NCBI GenBank assembly: GCA_964035545.1
Contig: OZ037772.1
Location: forward strand, 8,666,650 to 8,730,649
Source of the DNA: Bugula neritina
Lineage: Eukaryota; Bryozoa; Gymnolaemata; Cheilostomatida; Bugulidae
Length of the DNA: 64,000 nt
Direction: 5' to 3'
The position numbers and the translations under genes are program-made. How positions within the stretch are numbered: the stretch's first letter is position 1; every line of letters starts with the position of its first letter. Under the pieces are notes generated by a model. It was not told the origin of the DNA, ran no database searches, and saw nothing but the letters and a program-made list of their open reading frames with translations. Shown one piece after another: positions 24,774 through 41,916 of the stretch.

Positions 24774-27700
24774 TTAGCTACAAGAAGGTAAAACATCAAT
24801 AAACACCTGTTTACTGTCTCTATTCACAGAGTAACACAAGTTAAAGTATTGTTTCGATTGAAACTTCTCTCTCATTACTCCAGCTACATCTGTTAGCAGA
24901 TCAACTAGTTCTACTCTCTGTACAGATGGAGAAGCACCTTCTAGTAGCAGCAATCTATGAAGATACTCGCTACACACCCATACGGGTGGCTCAGCGTCAT
25001 TTAGTATGTTGTCTATAGACACAGTAGGTTGATAGGGCCCACTGTTAGTAAGTTGAGAGAGGTAGTCGGAGAAATATTTAAAAAACTTTCCAGCTTTTGA
25101 TCTAAAAACATAAAAATAGTTACTTTAAAAAACTGCAGTTACAAAATAAATTTCCATTCAAGTTTAGAAAACTAACAAAGGATGCATGCTTGCAAAATCT
25201 ATAGGAGTGAGGTGTGGCATTCTAAATGCCCACCTGCTGACATGTGGCATAACCTCCTGCTGATTCATGTCATACTCACCTGCTGACATGTGGCAAACAT
25301 ACCGTGGTATACTCACCTGCTATCATGTACTACACCCACCTGCTGACATGTGCCACACCCACCTGCTATCAGGCAAAGTTGTGAAACAGACATAGCAGTC
25401 TGCTGGGAGGTCCAAAGGTTTGAATGTTGACCTTTTCCACTCTTCTTCTCTCTCTGTGTCAGGTAATACTTGCTCTGTTGGCTTGTAAAGAAGTTCTATC
25501 TCATTCTCTGGCCAAGGAAACTCATTGCTAGATTCAAAACTATGAGGAGCTCTGTTGTATATGGCTGAAATATCTCCTCTGCAGCAGGACAGGAATAGTA
25601 GCTGAAATGACCAACATGTGAGTGAAAGACGGAAGCACCAACTGAAAGGTACACAGTTTAACTCACGCAAATAGCTGTCATCCCTGCGAGAGACCGCTGA
25701 TAAAAAGGGGTTCTTTGTTAAATCAGGCTAATGTCTTATTCAGATGGGGCACAGGAGCAAGTATGACTATAGATGCTCTTCCTATAAACATCACCAATGA
25801 CCTTCAGTGGGGTTCGAACCCATGACTTTGTGCTCTAACCCCTATACCACAGTTGACTAGTATTTAAAAAATGCAATACAAAAACAGTACCTATACTTAA
25901 AGTCTTTATCCTCAAATTCGTTATAAAGCACAATCCAATTATTTGCACGAGCTGTATTAATTTTTAGTGTTTTATAATTATCTAAACGAAATATTGGTTC
26001 AATGATAAATTTGAGTAATTGACGATTACCTTTGGAATGGCTGTGACTTGACCTGAATTAAAGGTGTTGACCACTTCCTGTGTGGAGCATTTAGAAACTC
26101 CATCGTGTCCATAAATCATACCATCCTTGCCATGGGAAAAGACAACCAAGGCAGCTAGTGACTCATGCCCTTCTGATTTGGAGTACTGATATATAGAACT
26201 CAGCATTTCTTCTGCTGACAAATCTTGTTTCACTTCAACCTAGATTAATATTCAGAGATATGAGAAAAATGTAATATGCGCTTCTTGGAATGTCTTTTTA
26301 AACTTTGTTTTGTGATTATTATGTGTATACAAACTTTTATTAACCTATTTATAAGTTTTTATATCTCAAAATTCAAAAGTACAGAATATCTTAGCACATA
26401 TATAAAGGTAATACTCACAGAAAATCTCAAATGGTTAGTAAAAATCTTTTGAGCATGTGCAAGGGCTTCTTTTCGAAGCTGAGAGATCAGTTTCTCACCA
26501 TCAGTTGGATTATCAGACAGCCCTAAGTTGTTGCAGATGATTAAAGCTTTTCCTCTCTTTTCTTTGCTGGTATAAGAAGTTGCTACATCCTGTTCAATTG
26601 TTCCAGTTAGTTCTTTTTCAGCATCTCTATTAGCTTCATCATAAGCTGGATTCTGAACTACTCGACTGGATGGTTCAATTGCTACTAATCTATGAGTGTC
26701 TGTCAAGAACTTGGTGTCATCTGCTAAGAAATCATTTTCATCTCGGACAAATCTCTTGTTTAGAGTTGAGTTGACATCTATCTGTTGCACGTTGGGGTTA
26801 CAACTAAGTGCGACAATCAAATCGTGTATAGATTTGTAGCTCTTCATATCCGGCATTTGTCTTCTGAAATGTAGATTGACACAGATTTGTAATGTATATA
26901 TTTATATTCAACTGCATACTTAAGAGTAAAATGACCTAAATATTGCAGCAAAGCATTGCTATGTTATTTTTATATGTAAAGCTTTTTATGTAAAGCCTTA
27001 AGTTTCATTATTTCTATACTAATACGTACTACTATACGTTTCTCACCTATTCTCACCTACCCTGCTTTGTACTGTCCATGGGTAGCGGCAATCCTATACT
27101 ATTTTTATGTTGACATACTGTTGTAACATGTATTGCTACACCCTTTCTATTCTAAAATATTGCTGCTAAACATTGCTATGCTAAATTTTCTATGATAACA
27201 ACATTGCTATAACACATTGCTATATACTGTTTCTATATATATAATAACTAACACATTGCTATGCTATTTCTATGCCAAAACATTGCGGTAACACATGCTA
27301 TAATACCTTGTATAATCTCTGCTGTATTTTACAGAAAGTATCAAATAGTCAGGACCAGGGGGCATAAGGTCAAGTTCTTCATCAACAGCTGACATTTGTA
27401 TTACTGCTATCTAAAATACGACCAAACATTTTCTTTATATTGAAATTGAAGAATTAAGCTTTATTGTATCTGATCAGCAGTATAGTTACTAAATAAAACC
27501 AGCTTGTAGGTCTTACAATTATTAGATGTGACATGCATGCTATATGGACAACAAAATGCTTTATGAAAAGTTTCAGTGTATCAGATGCACTAATATTTCT
27601 CTTTGTGTAGGTTCCACTAAGTATAAATTCAAAATGCTTGTAAAATAGTAAAACATGCACAAATTATAGGAATTCTATTAAAAAATACAGTTCAAAAGCT

Positions 27701-39100: not shown

Positions 39101-41916
39101 GTAGGTCTTACAATTATTAGACGTGCCATCACAGAGAGAAATATTAATGTTAGAGTGAACATTAGCTGACAACTGATCATGCATGCTACATGGACAATAA
39201 AATGCTTTATGGACAACTTTATTGTATCAGATGCACTAATATTTCTCTTTGTGTAGGTTTTATACTAAGTAAATATTCAAAATGCTTGTCAAATAGTAAA
39301 ACAATAGTAAAACATGCACAAATTATAGGAATCCTATATAAAACCAAAAGAAAAACACAATTTAAAACCTTTTTTTATACAAGTGTGAAAGATTTTAATT
39401 GCACATGTCAGCATTTAAAATGCTTTTTGACACTTAAATTCCCTACCTTAGGCTTGCCACTGTATCCAGGTACATCCATTTCATTAAGGACAGTTTGTAT
39501 GTTTGGCTGTTTGGGCTCATCAACCTTGTCAGTGTCTACGGCAACGAACATGCAATCATCTTCAACTGGTGATGTCTAGCATGCAGAAAGATATTATTAA
39601 AGCTGAGTAAACCAATTTGATAGTACCTGCATGTATGTTAAATATAAAAACCATAAGAGAACATAAAAAGAATATGACAACATTTTGCATTTCTACAACG
39701 AGATCTCGTATGTTTTTACCCAAATTGCAAATCTGAAGTGCAAGAACAATCTTTAAATTCAAACTCCTGTTTGGAAATTTAAATTTATAGTTGTATTGTG
39801 CTAAAGTATTGCAGATGTAGTATATTAAAATGTCAAAATAAAATAAATTTCAAGGTTTCACATTCAAGTTTGAGAGCAAAGTCTTGAACTAAATTATAGT
39901 GATGCTGACAATAAAATGCTGAGAATAAAAAGATCTAGTGAATTTATTTTAAAGTTTGTGCAAAAAGGCGAAATATGGAATTTATATCTACCAAAGCTTT
40001 TGACACTTCAGTTTCGTTCACAGAAGAGATGACAGTCTGTTGAATAGCAACAGCTGAAGAGAATAAGGTGTGTGAAGTTGTGTAGGCGAAGTCCAAAAGT
40101 GAGTATTCATTCAACGAGTACTTAAGCACTTTCAGAATAGTTTCATCGTATCTATATAGAGTTTCAGGGTGCTTCAATTGATTCTGAAACTCTTTTGAAT
40201 AAAAGAGTGTAATATGGCTAAATGCCGAGAGTAGAGTCTCGTTTGCATTGTTGCAGAGAATCTTTCTCATATAGAACTGTTCATGGAAACCTTTTTTCTT
40301 AATAATTTTTCTACAATCAACTAATTGTAAATTTTGTGAGTTTGCTATACTCTTCCTCCCTGATAAAGGAAGCTGCAATATAAAGTCAGCAAAAACTTTA
40401 GTGTCATACTTGGCAGCAACATAGTGAATTGGCGTGTTACCGTTTACATCAGGGTATATCAGATTCTTAACGTCGGCGTAATATAAATACTCTTGTAGTT
40501 CTGTATAGAGCTCTTTGAGAGATGATGAAAGAGCTGCCAGATGTAAAATGTTTTGGCGATGCTTGTTATGCTTTTGCATAAAGCTTCTGATTTTTTTAGC
40601 ATCGTAATTATCCTCCATGTATAGTAGAACTTCTCTTAAAGCGCTTGATCTTCCAAATTTGGTCAACATCAGAATTGGTGTGTTTCCATCAATCTCTTCA
40701 AGCAAAAATATTTTTTCCAGCAGTTCCGAGTTTCCCGCACCAAGAAGAATTTTAACAATGGTGGCATTATTTGCATAATGCAAAACTGTAGATCCATCAG
40801 CTGTTTGAGCAAACAGCAACTCTGCATCAATCTGAGATAAGTTACAGAAATACTCTACTACATCACTTCTACCTAGAAGTGATGCCATTTGCAATGCTGT
40901 TGTCTGAGACTTGTTAACAGAGAGCATAAAATCCATTTGTCTTTCTTTTCTGACAGAATTCACAAGTAACTTGGCTATTTCCCCATTAGCAACAAGATGT
41001 AGAGCTGTTTCACCAGACAAACTTTCCTTTAGAATCAGTTCATCGTCTGAATATAAACTACAGAGATACTGTACAACATCAGTTCTGCCAGAATAAGAAG
41101 CTGTATGTAGAGCTGTCAGTTGAGTTGTATCTGCTGAGTGTACGTAGTCTCTCTGTCTTTCTGGTGAAACTGTATCTACAAGTAACATGGCAACCTCTCT
41201 AGTTTTAGCAAAGAACAGAGCTGTGTCATTATGGCTGTTCTTCTTTAGTACCAGTTGCTCGCTCATTGGATGTAGACTACACAGATACTCAACTACGTCA
41301 GCTCTACCATCCTTGGCAGCTGTATGCAAAGCTGTGTACTGCTTCACATCTTCAGATAATACAAACTCTTCCTGCTTTTCAAACACCACTGAATCTACTA
41401 GCAGTTTAGCTATCCTTCTATTCTTGGCATAATGTAAAGCTTTCCACCCATTGATATCTTCTTTTGTCATGAGCACATCATGGTATGGACATAAACTACA
41501 AAGATATTTTACCACTTGATCTTTACCATCTTCAGCAGCTACGTGTAATGCTGTTCTCTGTTTAACATCAACTGCTAAGATGAAGTCTTCTTGTCTTGAT
41601 GGTTGAACTGATTGGACAAGAACTTCCGCTATTTCTCGGTTTTCAGCGTAGTGTAAAGTTGTCATGCCTGATTTGTCTCTTTTGAGTATCAGTTCATCAT
41701 CATTAGAATATAAACCACACAAGTACTCAACCACGTCAGTTGTACCAAAGACAGAGGCAGCGTGCAGAGCTGTACACTGATCAGCGTCAACAGAAAATAC
41801 AAAATCTCTTTGTTTCTCCTGTGGAACAGAGTTGACCAATGATTCCGCCATTGCTCGGTCTTCAGCATAATGTAAATCTGACCCAATGCGGGAAACACTA
41901 TCCATTTTTATGTTGG
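36161..41916 (-). CDS. Ankyrin-repeat caspase fusion protein, copy B
   Basis: Exons are 39992-41916 (ATG at 41905), 39447-39575, 38904-39007, 37931-38375, 37542-37751, 36863-37101 and 36161-36488. Together they give 3,369 nt, 1,122 aa; all exons after the first are the same length as copy A. The 5' untranslated exon probably ends at 42422. Catalytic His is in FSHGKDG (about residue 900) and Cys in LSCCRGD (about 941). Ankyrin repeats follow the same two-repeat period. Relative to copy A it has one extra residue at the N terminus (MDSVSR against MDVSR) and keeps five residues in the last duplex repeat (AQTADGSTVLHYAN against AQIPLHYAN). Both copies are open with conserved motifs, so both are likely functional. 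The caspase family assignment is firm; activity is inferred. Confidence 0.85.
36600..36862. repeat. Donor-like tandem repeat in caspase intron (copy B, expanded)
   Basis: Units of about 55 bp contain CACCTGCTGA, TGGCATAACCTCCTGCTGATTCATGTCATACT and similar. On the minus strand they repeat CAGCAGGTG, resembling the neighbouring exon donor. Confidence 0.75.
37161..37360 (-). repeat. tRNA-derived SINE in caspase intron (duplicate B)
   Basis: Counterpart of 25664-25855, more decayed in the B-box region and lacking part of the GCACAGGAGC segment. Confidence 0.75.
38752..38830. repeat. (TA)n microsatellite
   Basis: About 79 bp of TA within the third caspase intron of copy B; only a few TA units in copy A. 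Confidence 0.95.

Follow-up and report, generated by a model that had tools for sequence, protein, structure and literature searches.

A family of predicted ankyrin-caspase fusion genes with a degenerate caspase-like unit in the bryozoan Bugula neritina

Two tandemly duplicated genes on chromosome 8 of the bryozoan Bugula neritina place ankyrin repeats upstream of a caspase, which raises the question of whether one protein chain carries both and, if it does, what such a chain would do. The genes, here called A and B, lie in a stretch of 64,000 nucleotides (C8:8666650-8730649; hereafter the window, whose own positions are used below). Analysis of this sequence suggests that A and B almost certainly encode ankyrin-caspase fusions, and that a second, degenerate caspase-like unit stands between the ankyrin part and the caspase. 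We give an even chance to the whole reading, in which the single chain of ankyrin array, degenerate caspase unit and caspase is a sensor-protease with a built-in FLIP-like partner. The B. neritina assembly tzBugNeri2.1 comprises, according to the parts of its description that cover assembly and annotation, nine chromosomes and 216.00 Mb in 320 scaffolds, with an Ensembl annotation based mainly on transcriptome alignment (PMC11480708); the genome searched here comprises 215.8 Mb in 295 contigs. The features of the two genes are as follows.

30218-24774, minus strand: gene A, seven coding exons, 1116 amino acids (aa)
28323-30218, minus strand: gene A exon 1, ankyrin repeats and conserved C-terminal module, aa 1-632
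27782-27910, minus strand: gene A exon 2, middle degenerate caspase-like unit, end of its p20-like part, finishing at GKPK in phase 0
27307-27410, minus strand: gene A exon 3, middle unit, IAVIQMS strand and PPGPDY strand, phase 2 end
26419-26863, minus strand: gene A exon 4, end of the middle unit (VNSTLNKRF), linker, p20 start of the C-terminal caspase unit
26030-26239, minus strand: gene A exon 5, p20 with the catalytic-His motif SHG, finishing at IPK in phase 0
25363-25601, minus strand: gene A exon 6, catalytic-Cys motif SCCRG, intersubunit linker, first p10 strand, phase 2 end
24774-25101, minus strand: gene A exon 7, p10 and stop
41905-36161, minus strand: gene B, seven coding exons, 1122 aa
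39992-41905, minus strand: gene B exon 1, ankyrin repeats and C-terminal module, aa 1-638
39447-39575, minus strand: gene B exon 2, middle caspase-like unit
38904-39007, minus strand: gene B exon 3, middle caspase-like unit
37931-38375, minus strand: gene B exon 4, end of the middle unit, linker, p20 start
37542-37751, minus strand: gene B exon 5, p20 with SHG
36863-37101, minus strand: gene B exon 6, SCCRG, linker, first p10 strand
36161-36488, minus strand: gene B exon 7, p10 and stop
19973-31095, unstranded: tandem-duplicated segment carrying gene A, with its second copy at 31849-42759

Both models have GT/AG introns in phases 0,0,2,0,0,2 and a single stop at the very end, in agreement with a sequence-only reading of this DNA that had proposed two minus-strand genes of seven coding exons in consistent phase; the ankyrin-caspase junctions it named (28323/27910 in A, 39992/39575 in B) are exact, and its start of B at 41916 is replaced by a modelled start codon at 41905. 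The same reading assigned about 550 residues of ankyrin repeats to each gene. The array itself stands, with Ank families over the Pfam cut-off, and its extent is redrawn: the exon codes 632 residues in A and 638 in B, in which motifs of the T-x-L-H type (matched with a pattern of our own) extend as far as residue 375 or so, beyond which there are one or two less exact matches, and a separate conserved C-terminal module follows the repeats at about 441-632. The joined product of A matches, as had been anticipated, both Ank families (Ank_2, 139.3 bits, cut-off 27.3 bits) and Peptidase_C14 (PF00656, 61.3 bits, E 1.4e-16, residues 813-1011, cut-off 21.4 bits), and Ank_2 scores 156.4 bits against the exon-1 frame of B. 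In these Pfam searches of A and of the B exon-1 frame only Ank families precede the caspase above cut-off, and no death-fold (CARD or DED) prodomain is found. Residues 633-749 of A form the degenerate caspase-like unit, which, together with an altered substrate pocket in the C-terminal unit, goes beyond what the earlier reading described.

The products of A and B are 90.7% identical, and the two copies of the duplicated segment align as eight pieces that are 85-95% identical, one short piece being inverted. For the pair A/B, the ratio of nonsynonymous to synonymous divergence (dN/dS) is 0.28 overall and likewise 0.28 for the repeats alone, with lower values for the C-terminal ankyrin module (0.23) and the caspase part (0.19). 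A pseudogene reading of A and B is rejected, given zero internal stops or frameshifts and the overall ratio of 0.28.

A and B are members of a family of at least 19 loci in B. neritina. A genome search with the C-terminal module of the ankyrin exon returned 20 rows, which correspond to 19 loci including A and B (C1:63098 and C1:63533 being one locus); 10 kb around each of the 17 other loci was examined by exon-level searches, and the paralog models were built with exon phases taken from A. At every one of the 17, caspase pieces that are mostly 27-77% identical to A lie downstream of the ankyrin module without a change of strand, p20 first and then p10, an agreement that excludes a chance arrangement; with A and B the arrangement holds at 19 of 19. 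The middle unit is matched between ankyrin module and caspase at 16 of the 17, and exon 3 of L039 was recovered by a later model search; the sequence of L025 stops within exon 6, its remaining exons being in the overlapping L029.

Further evidence for a single gene comes from the junction itself. The ankyrin frame of L037, open over 925 codons and truncated where the locus begins, continues past the ankyrin module without an intron and takes in the exon-2 homologue up to ...HGQPK, and a frame of 649 codons in L039 is likewise intronless at the junction, with a short exon-2 match only (...ENLRGQPK). Where intron 1 is required, the phase-0 site is the best-scored donor at 15 of 17 loci by a simple consensus score of our own. 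Divergence of the ankyrin module correlates over the 19 loci with that of the caspase unit (exons 5-6; Mantel r 0.84, with 0 of 2000 permutations as high), as expected of one inherited unit. Five deposited B. neritina models of the family's caspase emerged from protein searches. Four of them, P0001 (EB796_014620), P0002 (EB796_009038), P0008 (EB796_007936) and P0021 (EB796_014945), are single proteins with both the ankyrin C-terminal module and the caspase. At the exon 1-2 junction, P0001, P0002 and P0021 agree with our models of L026, L024 and L030, respectively; P0001 and P0002 were known before modelling and left unused in the models, and P0021 was compared afterwards. Because the deposited models are, according to the gene-prediction part of their source, AUGUSTUS predictions with transcriptome hints (PMC7576161), they amount to support short of proof. 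The joined models begin within the ankyrin frame, and Pfam finds a weak ankyrin repeat in P0001 alone (E 0.0069, below cut-off); L026, the locus behind P0001, has a full ankyrin array in the same frame and shares 90% identity over 1011 residues with the ankyrin open frame P0005. From order, frame, correlated divergence and deposited models we strongly infer that the ankyrin and caspase exons form one transcript, as the sequence-only reading had supposed.

The family also shows divergence of a mosaic kind. The ankyrin module and middle part of L031 are closest to L029 and L028 (61% and 68%), and its exons 5-6 are 90% identical to those of L033; A and B are 99% identical in exons 5-6 and 91% in the ankyrin module, with synonymous divergence higher in the repeats (0.24) than in the caspase (0.08), and the pattern is reversed between L032 and L034 (0.11 in the middle unit, 0.27 in the caspase). 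Exchange of pieces among loci would fit these values. No named relative outside Bugula appeared at E <= 0.001 in two protein searches or at E <= 1 in a third, in searches that need shared 5-residue words and similar length and of which one scored the best 8000 candidates only; an organism name is missing from 16 of 19 rows of another and from one of the four rows of the third.

The unit between ankyrin module and caspase probably derives from a caspase. The ends of exons 2 and 5 fall at a matching place in phase 0 (GKPK/IAVIQ and IPK/LLFLSCCRG, the slash marking the boundary), and the ends of exons 3 and 6 are both in phase 2, 15-16 residues past the start of PDYLILSVKY and PADCYVCFTT, respectively; because boundary positions and phases are mirrored, exons 2, 3 and the start of 4 look like a copy of exons 5, 6 and 7. 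In eight other caspase loci readable here (L001, L002, L003, L005, L007, L008, L041 and L046), which were read by eye as open frames, the frame is unbroken past ...KPK into the next strand, and L041 has an apparent frame break about five residues further, after ...IFLIQ/ACRG; the mirrored boundary therefore seems peculiar to the ankyrin-caspase family. With linkers cut, a profile of the middle unit aligns to the QAC strand of the family's own caspase (hhalign E 0.0057) and to three other caspases of the genome (E 0.0021), and 0 of 200 column shuffles scored as high in either comparison. The conserved end of the unit, VNSTLNKRY, is similar to the final caspase strand (STLTKSLYF in L041), which in caspases lies at the dimer face. 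Several results weigh against this derivation: the hhalign match spans 27-30 columns only; untrimmed profiles give the same register at E 0.025 and a probability of 1.9%; Pfam reports a caspase in one of 15 members only, at a non-significant E of 0.13; and a profile search of the PDB gives four matches, of which three are to caspase-1 at a non-significant E of 1.1-1.5 and the fourth is unrelated.

If it is a caspase half, the middle unit has decayed catalytically. The position of the catalytic Cys is occupied by S, Y, F, L, V or T at 18 of the 19 loci and by Cys in L035 (register by eye), and no SHG is present in exon 2 at the 16 loci where it was read by eye. The unit is under purifying selection outside A and B, with dN/dS of 0.21-0.49 in the six other pairs computed; its PP is invariant and its D, Y and NST positions are near-invariant.

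The C-terminal unit is a different matter, being likely a cysteine protease by its sequence. SHG and the Cys of xxCRG are present at 19 of 19 loci, dN/dS values of 0.18-0.36 in seven pairs show purifying selection on the caspase part, and the unit aligns by sequence to an ancestral effector caspase (6pdq, E 2.6e-13) and to caspase-9 (3v3k, E 3.1e-8). Actual proteolysis is somewhat more probable than its absence. Two features count against it: every one of the 19 loci has S, C or G in place of the Gln of QACxG, and the start of exon 7 (p10) lacks a SWRN-type motif at the family loci; in addition, the residue after LPDS is R, K or other, and p10 carries a long variable insertion. In caspases the Gln of QACxG and the SWRN-type motif of p10 form the S1 pocket for Asp. 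Since both are gone, Asp specificity of the C-terminal unit is doubtful.

In the mechanism that we propose, the ankyrin array would bind a ligand or partner and cluster the protein; the middle unit, which probably arose by tandem duplication of the three final caspase exons and then lost its catalytic residues, would act as an in-chain FLIP-like dimerisation partner that holds and then helps to activate the C-terminal unit; and the C-terminal unit would cut itself and its targets with a P1 preference that has probably changed, its cleavage acting in cell death or immune signalling. The partner role of the middle unit, argued by analogy, is tentative, and ligand sensing, catalysis and pathway are put forward as hypotheses.

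In one alternative, improbable in our estimate, the C-terminal unit is a working protease with a non-Asp or relaxed P1 preference, paracaspase-like in use and immune or developmental rather than lethal in purpose, and the middle unit is a linker relic with no partner role. The changed pocket residues agree with it, as does the dN/dS of residues 633-749 between A and B, which at 1.08, on 12 differences only, also tells against the proposed mechanism; the selection on the middle unit in six other pairs and its invariant or near-invariant residues count against a relic. A decoy or scaffold is unlikely: the C-terminal unit would then be non-working, in the manner of pseudo-caspase regulators, its His and Cys persisting for structure or history. 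That explanation accommodates the loss of the pocket Gln at every locus, the missing SWRN-type motif and the long p10 insertion, but all 19 loci retain His and Cys, residues that the middle unit has lost, and the caspase part remains under purifying selection in all seven pairs.

Some observations at the junction count against a single transcript. The intron-1 donor of A and B is weak (TTG/GTAGAT), and AATAAA, on the minus strand at 28279 and 39948, overlaps the stop of the unspliced ankyrin frame just beyond the donor; an ankyrin-only isoform produced by intronic polyadenylation is conceivable, and could exist as a minor product beside the fusion. L036 and L040 have no good phase-0 donor at intron 1, and the model of L027 is doubtful because its exon 2 ends at a non-GT site. 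Among the deposited models, P0008 shares the ...VSKAL donor with A and B and jumps to exon 5, skipping exons 2-4, and P0020 ("CASP9") starts inside exon 3 without ankyrin. In one protein search 16 of 19 rows are ankyrin frames from metagenome sources with no caspase match; these are likely single-exon open frames, hence not telling. A separate promoter for the caspase exons, named by the earlier reading as the mark of two genes, has the start of P0020 in its favour, and a pair of neighbouring genes or products, that is, an ankyrin-only protein ending at the in-frame stop (28275 in A, 39944 in B) and a caspase gene starting in exon 2 or 3, could further draw on the weak donor and the AATAAA, but this is very improbable against the order kept at 19 of 19 loci, the single frame in L037 and by short match in L039, the joining in four of five deposited models and the correlated divergence of the two parts.

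Caspase activation is understood through death-fold adaptors and through homodimers or FLIP-type dimers. If the proposed single-chain mechanism is true, an ankyrin array with an in-chain dead caspase half is another way to wire and license a caspase; the fusion could let a single protein both sense and cut, one chain in one construct provides a testable system, and the family gives access to cell death and immunity in colonial animals, bryozoans among them. Sensor-caspase fusions are already known from amphioxus, and the combination of ankyrin repeats with an in-chain decayed caspase unit would, judged by sequence, be what is new here. The literature searched, with subscription papers mostly outside it, yielded no description that we recognised of these genes or of an ankyrin-caspase architecture, judged from listings and selected passages; the single hit of one such search concerns human isoforms, according to its listing.

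The amphioxus TNFR-caspase and LRR-caspase "shortcut" proteins likewise carry a recognition or interaction module directly on a caspase and bypass adaptors; in the passages that describe them they are said to keep QACXG and use TNFR or LRR modules, with ankyrin unmentioned (PMC2575513), whereas the Bugula family has a middle, apparently decayed caspase-like unit and 19 loci. Like the proposed middle unit, FLIP(L) is described in part of a paper as a Cys-less caspase-like unit paired with an active caspase, caspase-8; FLIP, however, is a separate DED protein, whereas the Bugula unit is shorter, lies in the same chain and is only proposed to pair (PMC7586951). Bivalve caspases with DSRM prodomains (PMC7836458) and four Mytilus coruscus caspases with two CASc domains (PMC10967218), as presented in the relevant passages, resemble the Bugula family in lophotrochozoan duplication-driven expansion, unusual prodomains and doubled caspase domains, but ankyrin goes unmentioned there and the module order is unlike that of Bugula (PMC7836458, PMC10967218). 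TRADD-N and DED proteins with ankyrin repeats are animal cell-death proteins whose repeats have been proposed to recognise invader molecules; in the portion concerned the repeats are joined to TRADD-N or death-fold domains, and a caspase fusion is not described (PMC8195603). The passages of two sponge papers that treat both caspases and ankyrin contain no joining of the two (PMC6208332, PMC8242945). Compared with caspase-9 and ancestral effector caspases (PDB 3v3k, 6pdq), the Bugula unit comes without a death-fold prodomain that could be found, without the Gln of QACxG and without the SWRN-type motif.

A bolder form of the proposal, which we consider speculative and rather improbable, would see in these genes a bryozoan one-chain "sensor, protease and own pseudo-caspase", in which ankyrin arrays, differing in length, detect a range of ligands (microbial cues or allorecognition signals within a colony, for instance), the decayed caspase half made by three-exon duplication replaces both a CARD or DED adaptor and a FLIP-type partner, and the cutting preference has changed.

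Elsewhere in the window, fn3 pieces matched by Pfam (19219-19626 and 32542-32799) belong to plus-strand coding sequence at 19219-23864 and 32542-35240, which adjoins or sits within the duplicated segment and was duplicated along with the ankyrin-caspase gene. A long simple repeat at 31205-32011, serine/glycine-coding on the minus strand, lies where the tandem copies meet. Four related long open frames (44982-45971 on the minus strand; 49713-50807, 54101-55198 and 58080-59099 on the plus strand) resemble NHL-type beta-propeller proteins by eye (WVADSSNHCIREI motifs), one of them followed by a membrane-type segment; the two that were scanned have no Pfam match.

Aligned pieces of L024, L026 and L030 differ by about 4-16% from the deposited proteins P0002, P0001 and P0021, respectively, that is, between two B. 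neritina assemblies, in a comparison with identity cut at 80-85%; cryptic species or fast evolution would fit such a difference. Genome-wide, Peptidase_C14 matches at exon level number at least 176 (from scoring 150 of 295 candidates; a count of matches, not of genes) and are often clustered, on C1 (32.8-35.5 Mb), C6 (2.5-6.3 Mb) and C7, which points to a large caspase expansion. In the C1 cluster, frames beside the caspases of L004, L007 and L008 resemble by eye a COR/ROCO-type region (NGANVYQDGIYTQLVHD...) and may represent another sensor-caspase fusion. L001 (C4:5000994-5001812) is a one-frame caspase with a full Pfam match (125.6 bits) in which FFDASFG replaces QACxG, and is likely a pseudo-caspase.

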